This document shows, in pieces, positions 15,627 to 38,968 of a stretch of DNA of 64,000 bases. A model generated the notes under the pieces. It ran no database searches. It was not told the DNA's origin and was given only the letters and a program-made list of their open reading frames with translations. How positions within the stretch are numbered: position 1 is the first letter of the stretch; the number at the start of each line of letters is the position of its first letter. The translations under genes and the position numbers were made by a program. The DNA is from an uncultured bacterium (GTDB lineage Bacteria > Cyanobacteriota > Vampirovibrionia > Gastranaerophilales > Gastranaerophilaceae): assembly GCA_903868125.1 (NCBI GenBank), contig CAIPUE010000018.1, forward strand, positions 1-64,000, given 5' to 3'.

Positions 15627-16109
15627 TTATAAATATTTTTTATGTACATCAAACTTTTCAGTTTGCTCTTGTTCAGGCTCTGGCTCTGGCTCTTCACTTT
15701 TAATTTCATCTTGAGGTTCTGCAATATACTCAAATTCTTTTATTAAGTTAATTGAATCTTGTCCCACCCCTATTAGAAAACGTTTATTATTAAGTTCAAT
15801 AACATGTAAGTTTTTCCCCTGCCCTAATTGAGTAGTGGAGAGCACGACAGCTTTATTTAAGTCATAATTTTTTAATTGTTCTTGCACTGTCCTTGCACCT
15901 ACGATATTTAATTTTGAATAAATTAATCCGGTTATATAAATCAAAAATATTACGAAAAGTAATGCGAAAACTATAGACATAATCCCAGGTTCATTTGCGT
16001 GTGTTTTTAAAGATTTTTCCAATTCCGGACTTACCGCGTCTGTTATACAAAGGGCTTTTTGTGCCGTAAGGATAAATATACTCGTTATTAAAAATAAATA
16101 TTTTTTCAT
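15627..16109 (-). CDS. fliO: FliO-like flagellar export protein
   Basis: The 160-aa protein has a signal-like N-terminus (residues 1-21), one strong membrane segment (about 43-65, IMSIVFALLFVIFLIYITGLIY) and a small soluble domain matching FliO: KAVVLSTTQLGQGKNLHVIELNNKRFLIGVG followed by INLIKEF. FliO helps assemble the FliPQR export gate. The C-terminus is a Glu/Pro-rich tail. AAGGGG precedes the ATG. It is not next to fliP/Q/R here but heads a probable operon with a KdsC-like phosphatase, a TPR protein and lysC. FliO is weakly conserved, so the call rests on topology and this domain. Confidence 0.7.
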   Translation of the reverse strand: MKKYLFLITSIFILTAQKALCITDAVSPELEKSLKTHANEPGIMSIVFALLFVIFLIYITGLIYSKLNIVGARTVQEQLKNYDLNKAVVLSTTQLGQGKNLHVIELNNKRFLIGVGQDSINLIKEFEYIAEPQDEIKSEEPEPEPEQEQTEKFDVHKKYL

Positions 16110-23614: not shown

Positions 23615-24919
23615 TTGCGAATAGTAGATTTGATCGACAAAAAGAAAAAAAATGGAATCCATTCAAAGGCAGAGATTGATTTTTTGATTAATTCACTGAT
23701 GGATGGCTCCGTTTTGGATTATCAAATTTCAGCTTGGCTTATGGCTGTTTACTTTAACGGAATGAACGAAGACGAAACAACTTTTTTGACAGAGGCTTTG
23801 ATTAATTCAGGCGAAAAAATTGATTTAAAGGAACTTGCAAAAAATGTTGTGGACAAACATTCAACAGGTGGCGTTGGCGATAAGATTACATTAACGCTTA
23901 TTCCGTTATTGGCGGCTTGCGGGATTCCTGTCGCGAAATTATCAGGTAAGGGATTGGGGCATACAGGCGGAACAATAGATAAACTTGAAGCAATTCCTAA
24001 TTTCAGAACAAATTTGTCGATTGAACAGATAATAGTTCAGGTGAACAAAATCGGCGTGGCGATAGCGTCTCAAACCCAAAGATTAACCCCTGCCGATGGG
24101 AAACTTTATGCACTCAGAGATGTTACAGCGACGGTTGACAGTATGCCGTTGATAGCATCTTCGGTTGTGTCAAAAAAAATCGCATCCGGTGCGGACAATA
24201 TTATTCTTGATGTAAAGTATGGCTCGGGCGCCTTTGTCAAAACTCCCGAAGAAGCCGTTATACTGTCAAATTTGATGACAAAGATAGGTAAAAAACTTAA
24301 TAAATCAATAATTGCAGTGGTTACTTCAATGGAAGAACCTTTAGGTAGAGCTGTGGGAAATTCGCTTGAAGTTATTGAATCGATTGAATTTCTCAAAGGT
24401 AAAACGCAGGGTGATTTGACTGATTTGACCTATGAATTTGCGGCAATTGCGCTTCTTCAAGTCGATAAGTTTAAAGACATTGATGAGGCGAAAGAATATC
24501 TGAAATCAATTGTTAAATCAGGCAAAGCCATTGATAAGTTTAGAGAATTAATTATAGCACAGGGCGGAACCCCTGAAATTATAGAGGATTATAAAAAATT
24601 TAAGCAGGCAAAATATATAATTGAAATTAAATCCCCAAAGGAGGGCTTTGTTCAAAAAATTGATGCTTACAAAATCGCTTATGGTTGTAAGCTTTTAGGT
24701 GCAGGGCGTGAGAAAAAAACTGATGATATAGATTACAGCGTAGGGATTTATTTAAACAAAAAGCATGGTGAGTTTTGTAAACTAGAGGAAACACTTTACA
24801 CGATTTATTCAAACGACGAGGGCAAAACAAGACTTGTGCAACAAATTTGTGAAGATGCATTCGAATTCTCAACCCAAATACCTCTTCAAACCGATTTAAT
24901 ATACCAAATCATAAAATAA
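23615..24919 (+). CDS. deoA: Pyrimidine-nucleoside/thymidine phosphorylase
   Basis: This enzyme cleaves thymidine, deoxyuridine or uridine with phosphate to base and sugar-1-phosphate. The 434-aa protein has the family signatures DKHSTGGVGDKITLTLIPLLAACG, SGKGLGHTGGTIDKLEAIP and LRDVTATVDSMPLIASSVVSKKIASG, and the C-terminal YKIAYGCKLLGAGREKKTDDIDYSVG region. The start is TTG with GAGGTGAG 6 nt upstream; no ATG nearby fits. The product would go to deoB. The same family includes both thymidine (DeoA) and broad pyrimidine (Pdp) enzymes; I cannot tell them apart here. Confidence 0.93.
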   Translation: MRIVDLIDKKKKNGIHSKAEIDFLINSLMDGSVLDYQISAWLMAVYFNGMNEDETTFLTEALINSGEKIDLKELAKNVVDKHSTGGVGDKITLTLIPLLAACGIPVAKLSGKGLGHTGGTIDKLEAIPNFRTNLSIEQIIVQVNKIGVAIASQTQRLTPADGKLYALRDVTATVDSMPLIASSVVSKKIASGADNIILDVKYGSGAFVKTPEEAVILSNLMTKIGKKLNKSIIAVVTSMEEPLGRAVGNSLEVIESIEFLKGKTQGDLTDLTYEFAAIALLQVDKFKDIDEAKEYLKSIVKSGKAIDKFRELIIAQGGTPEIIEDYKKFKQAKYIIEIKSPKEGFVQKIDAYKIAYGCKLLGAGREKKTDDIDYSVGIYLNKKHGEFCKLEETLYTIYSNDEGKTRLVQQICEDAFEFSTQIPLQTDLIYQIIK

Positions 24920-24931
24920 AAAGGAAAAAAT

Positions 24932-26410
24932 ATGTATAAAGGACTAAGAATGCAATATGTTATCAAATCAGTTCAAAGTGATAATCCCAAATTACTTGAG
25001 GATTTGCTGAACGAGATGTCGCAGGCAGGCTGGGATTTGTACAGTATGCATGAAGTTGAAACAGATGAAGGGTTTCAGTTTAATTGCATTTTTGCAACGG
25101 AGGATTCCATCAAAAGTGACACTGAGGACGAGGATGTTGTAAATATTACAACTTTCAAGAGTCAAATGGAAAAAATGCTTTCCTCGACTCTCTCACCTTA
25201 CGAATCATGCAAGGAAATTCAGGCAAAAATAAAGGAGCAAAGAAAAAAAATTGCTAAAATAAAAACTCAGCTTGAAGCTCAATCCGAAGAGCCAATTTCT
25301 AAAAATCGAAACCAATTGAATAATGAAATATCTCAAGGGTTGAAAGAGCTTGACGAATTAAGACAAAAATTAATCAGAACAATTTCACCCGAATCAATGT
25401 ACTCAAAAATTCGTCAGGAAAAATTGTCGATTAATTTGAGCGAGGAGGCAATGGAGCTTGTTAATCCTGATTCAGGCGGGGCTTTGATAGCTGAAACCGT
25501 AAAAATTCGACAAAAACTTGCCGAGGAATTGGGCTATGTGATGCCTAAGATTATTTTTGAAGACGATGAAAAACTTAACACTTGCGAATTCAGCATAAAA
25601 ATAAGAGGAATTGAAACCATTAACTCGTTTGTTTATCCCGATTATTTAATGTTCTTTGAAGATGATTTAAAATTGGATAAAAAGCAAAAGGGCGTTATTT
25701 ATTCGATTGATGAAATTACAGGTAAAAAAATTGTTTGGGTTGAAGAAAAAAAGACAAAAGATTTTTGGCAAAATGGGCTAAAATCCGCTGAATTTGTAGC
25801 AAGACTATTGGAACATGTCGTTATCAAAAATATTGACGAATTATTTGATTATTCTGATGTAAATCAGTATATGGAAATTGTCGGTGAAAAAAATATGTTT
25901 TTAATCGAAAACATTATTCCTGATTTTGTTTCTGTTGCTGAATTAAGATACCTTTTGGCGAATTTATTAAAGGAAGATATTTCAATAAAAGATATTGTTT
26001 ACATTTTTGAGAAAATAAATGATTTTTCTAACGAAGATTCAAAAGAAGATTTATTTGCAAAATTGAGATTGTCGCTTTCGAGATATATAAGTAAAAAAGT
26101 TTCAAACGAAGACGGGGTGATTCAAGTTTTGGAATTGTCTGAAAAGACTTATCATAATTTATTTTCCAAGATAAATTCAAACAACGATATAATAAGAATT
26201 GATACTGTCAAAATCGAAAAAATAGCGGGGTCTGTTTTTAAGAAAATCAAAAAAAACAACATAGATTTAGCTAATTTGATAATATTGGCACCGATTGAAA
26301 TTCGCCACATGTTTTTTATGATTATGTCACAGTTTATCAATAATATTAAGGTTATTTCAAGAGAAGAAATCTCAAATGGTTATACGATAGAAATATTGGA
26401 TGAGATATAG
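24932..26410 (+). CDS. Soluble FlhA cytoplasmic-domain-like protein with DUF4177-like N-terminus
   Basis: This 492-aa protein has no membrane segment. Residues 7-57 (YVIKSVQSDNPKLLEDLLNE...GWDLYSMHEVET) look like a DUF4177-type small domain. Residues 95-155 are a charged coiled coil. Residues 170-492 follow the cytoplasmic part of FlhA (FHIPEP): SGGALIAETVKIRQKLAEELGYVMPKI, then FVARLLEHVVIKNIDELFDYSDV, IPDFVSVAELRYLLANLLKEDISIKDIVYIFEKI, FAKLRLSLSRYI, and the closing APIEIRHMFFMIMSQF...IKVISREEI. In flagellar and other type III export, this part of FlhA forms the nonameric substrate-docking ring. The usual eight-helix membrane half (about 330 aa) is missing. It follows the phosphorylase by 12 nt. 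Role is unknown. Confidence 0.75.
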   Translation: MYKGLRMQYVIKSVQSDNPKLLEDLLNEMSQAGWDLYSMHEVETDEGFQFNCIFATEDSIKSDTEDEDVVNITTFKSQMEKMLSSTLSPYESCKEIQAKIKEQRKKIAKIKTQLEAQSEEPISKNRNQLNNEISQGLKELDELRQKLIRTISPESMYSKIRQEKLSINLSEEAMELVNPDSGGALIAETVKIRQKLAEELGYVMPKIIFEDDEKLNTCEFSIKIRGIETINSFVYPDYLMFFEDDLKLDKKQKGVIYSIDEITGKKIVWVEEKKTKDFWQNGLKSAEFVARLLEHVVIKNIDELFDYSDVNQYMEIVGEKNMFLIENIIPDFVSVAELRYLLANLLKEDISIKDIVYIFEKINDFSNEDSKEDLFAKLRLSLSRYISKKVSNEDGVIQVLELSEKTYHNLFSKINSNNDIIRIDTVKIEKIAGSVFKKIKKNNIDLANLIILAPIEIRHMFFMIMSQFINNIKVISREEISNGYTIEILDEI

Positions 26411-32714: not shown

Positions 32715-33998
32715 ATGGGGGATTTGCAAATTGAAGCACCTAAAACACTTCAACCGCCTATACTATTAAATAAGACAAATACCATCAAAAATAGCGGACA
32801 TCATGCTCTTGTTTTCAACTATAAAGGTGGTGCTACACAAGATTCAATTCCCAAGCCGCTAATAGGTGAGTTTAAACAAGGGTTTTTAAGTGACTGTTGG
32901 CTTTGTGCAATTGCAAAATCCCTAAGCCTCGATCCTGAAGGCAATAAACAACTTTCCAAAATGATAAAAAAAGAAGGGAATAGTTATACCGTTACTTTTA
33001 CTAATGATGTTCAGTTTAAAGTTTCAGATAAAGAAATTAGTGATGAGAAAGTTCGCTTTCGAGACGGAACTCCAGCTCAAAAACCCAGTATGATTTATTT
33101 TATAACTGAATTCCCATTTGTCAAATTAAAACATAATCCTTATGTCACTTATTCTACTGGAGATAAAAATCTTCGTATTTTGGAAATTGCAGCAAATAAA
33201 TATATACATAAATTAGCAACAGAAAACGAAAAAAAAGGGCTTCTAAATAAAGAGTATGCATCAAAAACTTGCTTGGAAAATTATACTATATCTGAAAATT
33301 TATTATTTGGTGACTTGAGCCAATATACATCCAACTGTATAGACCTAAAAAAAATAAAAGCATCCGACATAGCAATGGTTGGTACAAATTCAGATTCAGC
33401 ATTTAATAATTTGATGAATAATGGAATTTCTCATCATGCGTATTCTGTAAAAGCAATAGATAAACATAATAATATTATCACACTGATAAATCCGCATAAC
33501 ACAAAAGATGAACCTTTATGTCTTTCCTTCGACGATTTTTATAAAAGATTTTCAATGGTAACATTAAAAGGGAAATATAAAGATACAATTACGCTTACTA
33601 ATATAAGACAAAATATAGATAATTCTGCTTTTATAAAAAAAACAATTCAGATTGCTGAAAAACAAGAACCTAAAGAACTTTCACAGGCCTATGCTTCAGC
33701 AGGTCCTAAGTTGCTTGGAGAGGCAGGAGAAAAAAAATTGAAGGCGAAATTCATAGCGAACTTGATTGAATACTCGTCAAAGGGGGCTGGGACATATGAT
33801 AATAGCTTTAAAGGAGCAATTTATAGTATTGATAGTAAGGAAATGTATTATTTGGTTGATAAATATCTTAAAAGCATCCCAAATCGGGAATATACGAGCA
33901 AAGACAAAAAAGAATCTATGATTGATAAATATATAGAAGAAGAATTTTCATTTACTGATAATGCATCTTTGTTAAAATATACAGCTAAATTTAAGTAA
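32715..33998 (+). CDS. Calpain-like (C2) cysteine protease
   Basis: The 427-aa protein has the calpain catalytic layout: Gln55 and Cys61 in KQGFLSDCWLCAIAKSL, His241 in ISHHAYSVKAI, and Asn259 in TLINPHNT. These match the Q-G-x-x-x-D-C-W, G-H-A-Y and N-P-W/H motifs of C2 peptidases. The N-terminal 40 residues are an unrelated extension. Residues 285-427 are helical and unknown. There is no signal peptide. GGGAG precedes the ATG. It appears alone, downstream of the candidate ncRNA and ahead of tRNA-Gly. A substrate is not evident; regulated cytoplasmic cleavage or secretion by another route is possible. Confidence 0.8.
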   Translation: MGDLQIEAPKTLQPPILLNKTNTIKNSGHHALVFNYKGGATQDSIPKPLIGEFKQGFLSDCWLCAIAKSLSLDPEGNKQLSKMIKKEGNSYTVTFTNDVQFKVSDKEISDEKVRFRDGTPAQKPSMIYFITEFPFVKLKHNPYVTYSTGDKNLRILEIAANKYIHKLATENEKKGLLNKEYASKTCLENYTISENLLFGDLSQYTSNCIDLKKIKASDIAMVGTNSDSAFNNLMNNGISHHAYSVKAIDKHNNIITLINPHNTKDEPLCLSFDDFYKRFSMVTLKGKYKDTITLTNIRQNIDNSAFIKKTIQIAEKQEPKELSQAYASAGPKLLGEAGEKKLKAKFIANLIEYSSKGAGTYDNSFKGAIYSIDSKEMYYLVDKYLKSIPNREYTSKDKKESMIDKYIEEEFSFTDNASLLKYTAKFK

Positions 33999-35279: not shown

Positions 35280-35765
35280 TTAGTCTTTTAATCCTTCTAA
35301 TCTATCTTCGGGTTCTGTTATGCTTGTTATTCTCAGTCCGAAATTATCCTCAATTACAACGACTTCACCGTGTGCCACTAATTTCCCGTTCGCATAAAGT
35401 TCTACAGGTTCGCCTGCGACTTTTTCAAGCTCAATAATCGAACCACGGGTAAGTTCTAAAACTTTCTTAATAGGAAGTTCAGTTCTGCCTAATTCAACCG
35501 TAAGTTGTAGTTTTATATCCATTAAGATTGCAAGATTTTTATTAGCTTCTCCTTGCATTTGTCCCAGCTCGCCAAAAGATGCAAATTTAACAGGCTGGAT
35601 TGTAACCGGTTTATCTGTCTCAATTTGCTGTGTTGGTTCCACTTCCTCATTCATATTCTCTGTTACAACTTCATCAAGCTCAACCTTTTCATCGGTTGGT
35701 TCTTGAGCCTGAGTAATTTCTTCAGGTTCTTCTTGTTTTAATTTTTCGTCCTTTTCCTTTGGCAT
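35280..35765 (-). CDS. fliN: Flagellar motor switch protein FliN
   Basis: FliN forms the bottom of the C-ring that binds CheY-P and sorts export substrates. The 161-aa protein has an acidic Glu/Pro/Gln-rich N-terminal half and the C-terminal SpoA domain (about 80-150, VELGRTELPIKKVLELTRGSIIELEKVAGEPVELYANGKLVAHGEVVVIEDNFGLRI). It is the last gene of the motA-motB-fliL-fliM-fliN operon, 26 nt after fliM. The two-domain FliY form is absent. Confidence 0.93.
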   Translation of the reverse strand: MPKEKDEKLKQEEPEEITQAQEPTDEKVELDEVVTENMNEEVEPTQQIETDKPVTIQPVKFASFGELGQMQGEANKNLAILMDIKLQLTVELGRTELPIKKVLELTRGSIIELEKVAGEPVELYANGKLVAHGEVVVIEDNFGLRITSITEPEDRLEGLKD

Positions 35766-35791
35766 TTAAAAACCCTTTCTATACTTAATCA

Positions 35792-36823
35792 TTAAATATA
35801 TCCTTTTAATGAATCAATTGTTGCATCATATCTATCAGTTATTTTTATACATATTTTATTTTTCAATGTCCCAGGTCTTGCAAAAAATTTCTTTTCATCA
35901 TTAACTTTTACTATCAAGTCTTCATTAGTTTTATTCTCAAGTTTGATAATATCGCCTTCTTTAATGTCTAAAAAATCTGCAAGTGCGATATCACACGAAC
36001 CAAATAAAACACTTAGATCCACTTTGGAAGTATTTAATTTTTGAATCATTTTTTGACGTTCTTCAGTTGTCGCAACAATCCCTTTGGTTTGGAATATATG
36101 TTGAGTACTTAAATGTACTAAAATATTTTCTAAGACAGGATAGGGGAAACATAAACTTACTAAGCCGAAGTATTTGCCAGCTATTTGCACTTCAAATGTT
36201 ATTAAAGCGACTATCTCACCTGAAGTTGCGACTTGTATCATTTGATAACTATTATCCAGTCCAACAACAGTTGATTGAACAGGCAGGATGCTGCTCCAAG
36301 CGATTTCAAGAGTTTTAACGGTTCTTTCAATAACTTTTTTGGCTAGGGCTTCCTCTATATCAGTCAATTCTCTTTGCCTGTTTTCACTTAAACCTACTCC
36401 ACCGAGCATTCTATCTACAATACACGAGAGAACTTCAAAACTAATGCCTAAGAGTATTTGCCCCGGTAACGGGTTGAGTTCAAAAATACCAATAGTAATT
36501 GGAGAAGGCATTGAGCGCATAAATTCATCATAAGTTAATTGGTCCGTCGATACAACGTTTATTTCTATATGCATTCTTAAATAAGCTGTTAAAACAAGTG
36601 ATATTTGTCTGGAAAATTCCCTGTGAACATCTTGTAAGGCTCTTAGGTGGTCTTTTGAGAATTTATCCGGGCGTCTGAAATTATATAACTTATACCCCTT
36701 TTTGTAATCTTCTTCAGAGTTATCTTCAGAGTAAGGATTATAGACATCTTCGCCTGATGTATCCATATCAAGCGTATAAGCTAAATTTGTATTAAAATTT
36801 TCATTTGACTGTGGATTTGTCAT
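35792..36823 (-). CDS. fliM: Flagellar motor switch protein FliM
   Basis: FliM links the rotor ring FliG to FliN and holds the CheY-P site. The 343-aa protein has an unusual N-terminus, an extended CheC-like middle domain (KDHLRALQDVHREFSRQISLVLTAYLRMHI, PGQILLGISFEVLSCIVDRMLGG) and a C-terminal SpoA domain (VDLSVLFGSCDIALADFLDIKEGDIIKL). The N-terminal CheY-binding peptide (LSQxEIDALL in many FliM) is not obvious; residues 1-45 are acidic and polar instead. It is 20 nt after fliL. Confidence 0.92.
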   Translation of the reverse strand: MTNPQSNENFNTNLAYTLDMDTSGEDVYNPYSEDNSEEDYKKGYKLYNFRRPDKFSKDHLRALQDVHREFSRQISLVLTAYLRMHIEINVVSTDQLTYDEFMRSMPSPITIGIFELNPLPGQILLGISFEVLSCIVDRMLGGVGLSENRQRELTDIEEALAKKVIERTVKTLEIAWSSILPVQSTVVGLDNSYQMIQVATSGEIVALITFEVQIAGKYFGLVSLCFPYPVLENILVHLSTQHIFQTKGIVATTEERQKMIQKLNTSKVDLSVLFGSCDIALADFLDIKEGDIIKLENKTNEDLIVKVNDEKKFFARPGTLKNKICIKITDRYDATIDSLKGYI

Positions 36824-36843: not shown

Positions 36844-37509
36844 TTATTGAATTATAAATTGTCCGAAACTAACTCTGAGAACCTCTCTCTCACCTGCAAA
36901 AATACCATTTACAGCTTCTGTTATTTGTTCTTTTGCCAACTCTTTTCCTGCAATAGTTGAAAGTTCTGCTGAAGTTTTGCTTGATAAAGTAGTAATAACT
37001 GAATCTCTTATCGCCGGTTTAAATTGAGCCATTTCAGTTTCTAAAGGATTTACAGCTGGTGCTGCGCCCTCGCCCTCGCCACCGCCATGACCACCACCAT
37101 GACCACCACCACCAGCAGGGGCTTCTGCAGCTGCATCTTCAGGTTTATTTGACATTTCTAATGCTACATTGACTTTTAGATATTTCCTTGGGGCAGTATC
37201 ACTTAAATTTAAAATAAAATCTCCCAAATCTACAATAAATCCTCTTTGAACTTTATCCGTATCCTCGCTTGTATCCGTTTCAGCAGCAGGAGCATTTTCA
37301 TCGGCCGGCGCTATTTTGGATAGCTTTGAGCTCAGTAAATTTGATTGCAAAATATAATTGACACTAAGAAACAGAATACAAATCAAAATAGTTGTTACCA
37401 GATTTGTTATTATTCCTTTCATATTATCATCAATTGCAATTTTTGCTTTCGGTTTATCATTCCCCTCGGTTTTGGGTTTAATATCTTTTGGTTGGTTTGG
37501 TTTTGCCAT
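36844..37509 (-). CDS. fliL: Flagellar basal-body protein FliL with Gly/His-rich insert
   Basis: FliL surrounds the MotAB stator and helps motor output. The 221-aa protein has a cytoplasmic basic tail, one membrane segment (about 33-53) and a periplasmic domain with DLGDFILNLSDTAPRKYLKVNVALEM and the end LRVSFGQFII. Between the halves of that domain, about residues 122-153, lies a low-complexity insert (PAGGGGHGGGHGGGEGEGA) that most FliL proteins lack. TGGAGAT precedes the ATG. It sits between motB and fliM. Confidence 0.88.
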   Translation of the reverse strand: MAKPNQPKDIKPKTEGNDKPKAKIAIDDNMKGIITNLVTTILICILFLSVNYILQSNLLSSKLSKIAPADENAPAAETDTSEDTDKVQRGFIVDLGDFILNLSDTAPRKYLKVNVALEMSNKPEDAAAEAPAGGGGHGGGHGGGEGEGAAPAVNPLETEMAQFKPAIRDSVITTLSSKTSAELSTIAGKELAKEQITEAVNGIFAGEREVLRVSFGQFIIQ

Positions 37510-37529
37510 TTTTTATCTCCAGTTTTTTC

Positions 37530-38195
37530 TTACTTATCTAATACTATTATATCAACTCTTCTATTTAACATTCTACCACTAATTGTTGTATTGTCAGCTA
37601 CAGGCATGTATTCTCCGTAACCAACCGCACACAATCTTTTTGGTGATATCTTTCGGTTTTTAACCATATAATCTATGATATTAGTTGCCCTCGCTGTTGA
37701 TAACTCCCAGTTTGATTGATATTTTACATTTTTTATCGGAGTGGAATCCGTATGTCCCTCTATTATAACAGGATTATCTATTTTTGTTAATACTTTAGTT
37801 ATTTCATTGATGGGCTTTTGCGCATTTTCTTTTATTTTTGCAGAACCTTCATCAAATAAAAGAGTGTTATTTAGCCTTATAATTAGCCCTTTATCACCTT
37901 TTAAAAGTTTTATGGATTTAGATTGAGATATATTATCTCTTAATATTTTCTCAATATTAGCATTTTGGGTCGAATTTATTTTAGAATTTGCTTGATATTT
38001 CGTAACATTTTCGATTGGTTGCTCCGAAAATGTTTTGTGCATTTTATTTTGGAATTCGGTTAATTTTTGATTATCTATACGCAAAACAGCATACATAACC
38101 ATAAACAACGCCAAAAGCATTGTAACAAAATCAGCATAAGATACGACCCAGCGGTTTATATAATCTTTGGAGTTTGTATAGTAATCATTACGCAT
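37530..38195 (-). CDS. motB: Flagellar motor stator MotB
   Basis: MotB carries the stator ion path and anchors it to peptidoglycan. The 221-aa protein has one membrane segment with the proton-binding Asp22 in SYADFVTMLLALFMVMYAV, a plug and linker, and an OmpA-like peptidoglycan-binding domain (about 125-215, IEGHTDSTPIKN and GRMLNRRVDIIV). It follows motA by 5 nt, as usual, and the two must be expressed together. It is compact compared with E. coli MotB (308 aa). Confidence 0.93.
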   Translation of the reverse strand: MRNDYYTNSKDYINRWVVSYADFVTMLLALFMVMYAVLRIDNQKLTEFQNKMHKTFSEQPIENVTKYQANSKINSTQNANIEKILRDNISQSKSIKLLKGDKGLIIRLNNTLLFDEGSAKIKENAQKPINEITKVLTKIDNPVIIEGHTDSTPIKNVKYQSNWELSTARATNIIDYMVKNRKISPKRLCAVGYGEYMPVADNTTISGRMLNRRVDIIVLDK

Positions 38196-38200
38196 GTTAC

Positions 38201-38968
38201 TTATGTCCTACTATTATTTTTGTGGTGAAATTTTAGATATGCGACAAGTTTTTCTTCAATTATCGCCGGATTTTCTTGCATTAATATTGACATAATTCCT
38301 TGGAGCATAACTTCTTTTAGTAATATTTTTTCTCTTGTTTTTTGCTTAAGATTTCCTGCTATCGGAAGTAAAATAAGGTTGGCTAAACCAACTCCGTACA
38401 AAGTTGCAACAAATGCCGTCGCAATACCTGTTCCAAGTATTCGTATGTCTTGAATATTTGACATAACTTGAATTAATCCCATAACTGCACCAATAACTCC
38501 AAATGTAGGAGCATAGCCGCCCAGTGCTTCAAAAACTCTTGAGCTGATTAATTCTTCTTCTTCCTCATAAGAAATCTCTGCGGATAAAACATCATACAGT
38601 AGTTGCGGATTATTCAAATCTATCGCCAGTTGCAAGCCTCTTGATAAAAAGTTATCCCTGACGCCACTGAGAACATTTTGCAGGGCAAAAATACCGTTTT
38701 TTCGTGCATAGTAAGACAATTGAATTATGTCATCAATAACTTTTATAGTTTTGTTTTCTTCTTTATAGAAAATTGCCCTTGCATTGTTAAACGCATTTTT
38801 TATTGTTGCGTAGTTAAAGTTTAAGAGAGCCGCACAAAAAGTTCCGCCAACTACTATGAAAAACGCCGTAGGTTGGATTAAGACCAAAATCGAACCGCCT
38901 TCAAATGCTTGTGTGGCAAAAACCATAACTAAACCCGTCAAGAGTGCAAAAACAGCCGTTAAATTCAA
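38201..38968 (-). CDS. motA: Flagellar motor stator MotA
   Basis: MotA forms the ring around MotB and pushes on FliG. The 255-aa protein has four membrane segments and the conserved regions QPTAFFIVVGGTFCAAL, EALGGYAPTFGVIGAVMGLIQVM and GTGIATAFVATLYGVGLANLILLPIAGNLK. The start is TTG at 38968 with GGGGAGGA 5 nt upstream; an ATG at 38973 is out of frame. It is the first gene of the five-gene motor operon. Confidence 0.94.
   Translation of the reverse strand: MNLTAVFALLTGLVMVFATQAFEGGSILVLIQPTAFFIVVGGTFCAALLNFNYATIKNAFNNARAIFYKEENKTIKVIDDIIQLSYYARKNGIFALQNVLSGVRDNFLSRGLQLAIDLNNPQLLYDVLSAEISYEEEEELISSRVFEALGGYAPTFGVIGAVMGLIQVMSNIQDIRILGTGIATAFVATLYGVGLANLILLPIAGNLKQKTREKILLKEVMLQGIMSILMQENPAIIEEKLVAYLKFHHKNNSRT

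Follow-up and report, generated by a model that had tools for sequence, protein, structure and literature searches.

A soluble paralogue of FlhA-2 fused to a DUF4177-like domain in the Gastranaerophilales

Introduction

FlhA and its injectisome relative SctV are regarded as homo-nonameric membrane proteins. The transmembrane half of FlhA conducts ions and anchors the ring, and injectisome SctV similarly carries a membrane half. In Salmonella, chaperone-substrate complexes dock at a dimple in the cytoplasmic part of FlhA (FlhA-C) that is marked by Asp-456, Phe-459 and Thr-490 (PMC8166844), while the glycine of the GYXLI motif (Salmonella 368) serves as a structural switch for the open-close motion (PMC9431611).

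A short FlhA-like protein is encoded in a 64,000-nucleotide stretch of DNA from an uncultured bacterium of the order Gastranaerophilales, which is allied to the cyanobacteria (assembly GCA_903868125.1, contig CAIPUE010000018.1), referred to here as the window. The open-access literature on type III secretion systems in Gastranaerophilales/Vampirovibrionia, soluble FlhA paralogues and FHIPEP architectures yielded nothing on point, which is a weak negative confined to that literature.

A FlhA cytoplasmic domain without its membrane half

The open reading frame at 24932-26410 (+ strand) translates into a protein of 492 residues, and its product is a genuine FlhA cytoplasmic domain minus the membrane half. 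Residues 143-482 match positions 321-654 of the 657 in the Pfam FHIPEP profile (PF00771) with E 5e-52 and 177.7 bits, the curated cut-off being 29.1 bits, and phmmer finds FlhA-C crystal structures, with 3mix at the top (9e-23). There is no membrane half within the open reading frame, since the FHIPEP match begins only at profile position 321. Hydropathy in 19-residue windows found no membrane segment in the 492 residues; the peak window scores 1.61, starts at residue 446 and lies inside domain D4.

Loss of the membrane half through a frameshift, which an earlier note on this DNA had named as a possible refutation, or through an assembly error is ruled out on three grounds. The preceding gene, deoA, is an intact open reading frame for 434 residues with its stop at 24919, 12 bases upstream; orthologues of about 490 residues occur in dozens of genera; and comparison with a same-genus orthologue gives pN 0.006 and pS 0.088, a pN/pS of about 0.07. 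The gene is thus under purifying selection. The spacer after the deoA stop (24920-24931, + strand), as read from the sequence, holds an AAAGGA ribosome-binding-like site and no remnant of a membrane half.

An AlphaFold2 model built from 49 orthologues has a mean pLDDT of 79 and a pTM of 0.65, with the FlhA part mostly at 80-95 pLDDT. It predicts a beta-alpha-beta-beta domain at residues 7-57 (24950-25102, + strand), a poorly ordered stretch at 58-88, a two-helix hairpin at 89-151 that stands where FlhA has its membrane half (25196-25384, + strand; pLDDT in this block mostly 60-83), and then a four-domain FlhA-C body, residues 163-492 (25418-26407, + strand). Foldseek aligns about 335 residues of the model to FlhA-C of Salmonella, Bacillus, Helicobacter and Vibrio and to SctV-C, with E values down to 6.5e-23 and best TM scores by target of 0.80-0.85; the FlhA-C fold with domains D1-D4 is present in the model (matches to 3a5i, 6ch2 and 7amy among others). 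The FHIPEP score and this fold bear out the earlier proposal that residues 170-492 follow the cytoplasmic part of FlhA, and the predicted domain and coiled-coil-like hairpin agree with the small domain and coiled coil that were said to replace the membrane half.

The same note had called the N-terminal domain DUF4177-like. The DUF4177 profile (PF13783) is matched at E <= 1 by half of the diverse orthologues tested (12/24), while the window protein itself gives no match. The scores are weak, the best being 3.2e-4, so that the assignment is plausible but weak. The domain is here fused to FlhA-C. We know of no function for the DUF4177 family.

Two export systems in one genome

A search of the window's own genome for a normal, full-length flhA, suggested in the earlier note, found two. 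These full-length FHIPEP proteins, FlhA-1 and FlhA-2, are encoded in separate clusters. The FlhA-1 gene comes after FliP-FliQ-FliR-FlhB, and the FlhA-2 gene after FliE-FliF-(a 323-residue protein)-FliH; in one relative (G041), FliI adjoins.

FliP and FliF of 58 relatives each fall into two score classes. The higher class largely goes with flagellin, which is found in 37 of the 58 genomes, and FliM occurs in the same 37; this is the true flagellum, or system A, to which FlhA-1 belongs. The lower class is found in practically all of the 58, and every one of them has a FliP. Flagellin-less genomes keep FliOPQR, an SctQ/FliN-like protein of about 400 residues, FlhB (exactly one in each of those tested), FliE, FliF, FliH and rod proteins, and also hold a FliJ/YscO-like protein, a weak FliK and a short hook-like protein. 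The name system B is used here for FliEF, FliHI, FliOPQR, FlhB, FlhA-2, the SctQ/FliN-like protein, the rod proteins, the short hook-like protein and the FliK-like protein. System B is a second flagellar-type type III exporter that lacks both flagellin and FliM, and essentially all examined genomes of the order carry it. It was seen at loci L034, L054, L055, L201 and L202 (genomes G000 and G007). The system B protein between FliF and FliH (L039:7871-8830, - strand; L055:7232-8248, + strand) occupies the slot expected for FliG and has no significant Pfam match; it may be a FliG that has diverged strongly, or else a new component.

Such gene sets have been called incomplete flagella in genome papers on Melainabacteria (PMC3787301, PMC4040986), and two flhA genes appear among the shared genes in the methods of the former (PMC3787301), which is consistent with two systems. 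This suggests that the 'incomplete flagella' of Melainabacteria include a second exporter that coexists with a true flagellum and is separate from it. System B may secrete something in this gut-associated lineage.

Gene neighbourhood

The short gene lies downstream of bamA-skp-deoA, a run that is shared by some genomes of family f1 and was not seen beyond it. In family f7 the orthologue is directly upstream of the system A genes fliJ-fliK-flgD-flgE, and infC-rplT are also among the neighbours. No gene neighbourhood is conserved across families, and none of the genomes whose contexts were read has the short gene next to the flhA-2 cluster.

The window also carries fliO (15627-16109, - strand), 9 kb upstream of the short gene, and, 9-13 kb downstream, fliN-fliM (35280-36823, - strand) followed by an apparent fliL-motB-motA (36844-38968), identified by reading the sequence rather than by profiles. 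All of these count as parts of the true flagellum, FliM included. The earlier statement that the gene does not sit with flagellar genes is therefore correct for its immediate neighbours in the window, but not for the window as a whole or for family f7. At 32715-33998 (+ strand) the window encodes a 427-residue protein with a weak match to the calpain family (Peptidase_C2; E 1.2e-4, just below the cut-off).

Distribution and ancestry

Orthologues of about 490 residues with the same architecture were found in 54 of the 58 genomes examined closely, and in a sample of the phylum 172 of the 173 genomes of the order that gave any match had full-family scores. The short protein is thus almost always present in the order Gastranaerophilales. 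Elsewhere in the class, the genomes sampled from other orders (f8-f11) contained no full-length family member but full-length FlhA, small fragments or no match at all, and the sample from other classes likewise lacked a full-length match. Close orthologues at three loci titled Fusobacterium sp. CAG:439 and Heliobacteriaceae (L150, L146 and L160) probably come from mislabelled Gastranaerophilales genomes.

In a tree of 45 FlhA rows, with no SctV rows, the short family forms one clade (100/100) within the FlhA-2 side (100/100) and apart from FlhA-1, and close kinship with FlhA-1 is ruled out. It is probably sister to the FlhA-2 of the order; support for this particular placement is only 88/58, as against 100/100 for the larger group. 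The stem branch is long, at 1.45 changes per site. Phylogenetically, the short protein is a paralogue of the second exporter's gate, FlhA-2.

Of the 37 genomes with flagellin, 36 have the short protein, and so do 18 of the 21 that lack flagellin. The latter figure rules out tracking of flagellin and FliM, the flagellar association that the earlier note had proposed to look for. Together with branching on the FlhA-2 side, it indicates instead that the short protein follows the second exporter and not the flagellum: both ancestry and co-occurrence (54/58 genomes, with FliP in 58/58) go with system B. System B is retained without the short protein in two genomes, G003 and G004 (98 and 93% complete); the protein is thus dispensable and not essential to system B. 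In one draft (G264) the short protein is present and no FlhA-2 was found.

Domains retained and domains lost

The domains of the FlhA-C body have diverged to different extents. With limits that are approximate, being taken from the model and the alignment, identity to FlhA-2 is 35% in D1a and 37% in D3, but only 19% in D2 and 20% in D4. As D4 is 82% conserved within the FlhA-2 of the order, its divergence is a feature of the short family alone. Within the family itself, the DUF4177-like domain (51% mean pairwise identity) and D3 (50%) are the best conserved and D4 (29%) is among the least. D3, the retained ring-core domain, comprises residues 305-382 (25844-26077, + strand; SIKDIVYIFEKINDF). 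The diverged D2, the chaperone-dock domain, comprises residues 237-284 (25640-25783, + strand) and has a conserved motif of its own, W..KTKDFW..G.

The same pattern is seen at individual residues. Arg-391 is invariant in the 14 short-family rows compared, whereas Gly-368 of GYXLI, a glycine in all FlhA-1 and FlhA-2 rows compared, is Ser or Thr in 14/14. Of the chaperone dimple, Asp-456 is kept in 13/14, while Phe-459 (Thr-263 in the window protein) and Thr-490 are lost. Selection thus appears to maintain the ring core together with the added N-terminal domain, and not the old cargo dock.

Proposed role and alternatives

The retention of ring core and N-terminal domain, rather than cargo dock, suggests an accessory subunit that is attached to the FlhA-2 ring or built into it. 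The reading tentatively preferred here, at a little short of an even chance, is that the short protein is a soluble accessory paralogue that docks on the FlhA-2 ring or inserts into it, with the DUF4177-like domain as an adaptor. It would have arisen by duplication of FlhA-2, with the membrane half being lost and the DUF4177-like domain and the helical hairpin being gained. The retained D1 and D3 surfaces would most likely mediate docking on the cytoplasmic ring, or insertion into it, and the adaptor might bring in or hold back a substrate, a chaperone or the ATPase complex, its target being something that the standard dimple does not bind. A larger claim, that the export gate is heteromeric or double-decked across the order, with the soluble, adaptor-bearing paralogue joining the FlhA-2 ring and changing the cargo that is accepted, is rather unlikely as matters stand. 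If true, it would to our knowledge be the first natural export-gate ring with a dedicated soluble subunit. A soluble paralogue that has FlhA-C only and is retained nearly throughout the order, with its ring core kept and its cargo dock rebuilt, makes hetero-oligomeric export gates testable.

A different reading places the protein outside the ring altogether, as a free cytosolic regulator in which the FlhA-C fold senses a ligand or a protein and the DUF4177-like domain is the output, reporting export state to the cell. The loss of the GYXLI switch glycine and of the chaperone dock would suit such a role, as would a gene location independent of the system B clusters and the occurrence in the phylum of other free FlhA-C modules with unrelated N-termini, one of them an HTH_17 domain in a protein encoded next to fliP. 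A pure ligand sensor would not, however, need to retain D1 and D3 selectively over D2 and D4, and a Pfam profile search of the window protein found no recognisable DNA-binding or enzymatic output domain; this regulator is judged unlikely. The improbability is considerably greater for a decoy or inhibitor, an idea raised in the earlier note as an assembly decoy, in which the free module would bind chaperone-substrate complexes or FlhA subunits and slow export. A soluble fragment can in principle compete with the ring-forming protein from which it derives, and D1 and D3 are indeed retained. Yet the Phe-459/Thr-490 site and the D2/D4 cleft are not kept, and near-universal retention with a highly conserved N-terminal domain suggests more than competition. 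As the whole D2/D4 surface has diverged along with that site, the chaperone or substrate hub of the same note is likewise weakened.

Slightly less probable again is service to the true flagellum, such as that of an export factor acting at the hook stage or linked to FliJ/FliK. The position of the f7 gene immediately upstream of fliJ-fliK-flgD-flgE, and the fliO, fliN-fliM and apparent fliL-motB-motA genes 9-13 kb away in the window, would fit this, but 18 of the 21 relatives that lack flagellin and FliM have the protein, and the tree places it on the FlhA-2 side and not with FlhA-1. The least probable of these readings is an exapted fold with no link left to type III export. Such a history would account for the long stem branch, the scattered gene neighbourhoods and the loss of several FlhA landmarks; against it, the protein is found only in an order where practically every genome has the system B exporter, and D1 and D3 are preferentially kept.

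Comparison with known systems

The short protein shares with FlhA (FHIPEP, PF00771) the D1-D4 fold of FlhA-C, profile positions 321-654, Arg-391, Asp-456 and the D1 and D3 core. It differs in having no transmembrane half, in the replacement of the GYXLI glycine by Ser or Thr, in the loss of the Phe-459/Thr-490 dock, in its diverged D2 and D4, and in the extra DUF4177-like domain and hairpin. Members of the injectisome SctV family (MxiA, YscV, CdsV, SsaV and InvA) have the same fold, with TM scores by target of 0.71-0.84. Unlike them, the short protein has no membrane half, and the nearest relative found, in a tree without SctV rows, is the FlhA-2 of its own order.

Other free or re-fused FlhA-C modules occur in the phylum. 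In another class, a 413-residue protein (L194:1486-2727, - strand) joins an excisionase-type HTH_17 DNA-binding domain to FlhA-C and adjoins fliP; it may be a transcription factor responsive to export state. Other classes also have FlhA-C modules that lack the membrane half of FlhA, at L193 (helical region plus FlhA-C), L195 and L198. A 593-residue protein (L047:4041-5822, - strand) resembles, in its first 200 or so residues, the system B protein that lies between FliF and FliH; next come a hydrophobic stretch and FlhA-C. Five small FlhA-C-like proteins of 212-335 residues, with partial D1-D3 and no D4, are scattered among genomes of the order (L048:4481-5119, L050:4423-5061, L051:5036-5683, L049:4566-5423 and L052:3971-4978). 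The repeated appearance of free FlhA-C fusions, one of them to an HTH domain, suggests that this module also has uses away from the ring. The proteins at L194, L193, L047 and L048-L052 resemble the window protein as free or re-fused FlhA-C modules, but they have other N-terminal partners and are sporadic, and those included in the tree fall outside its clade.
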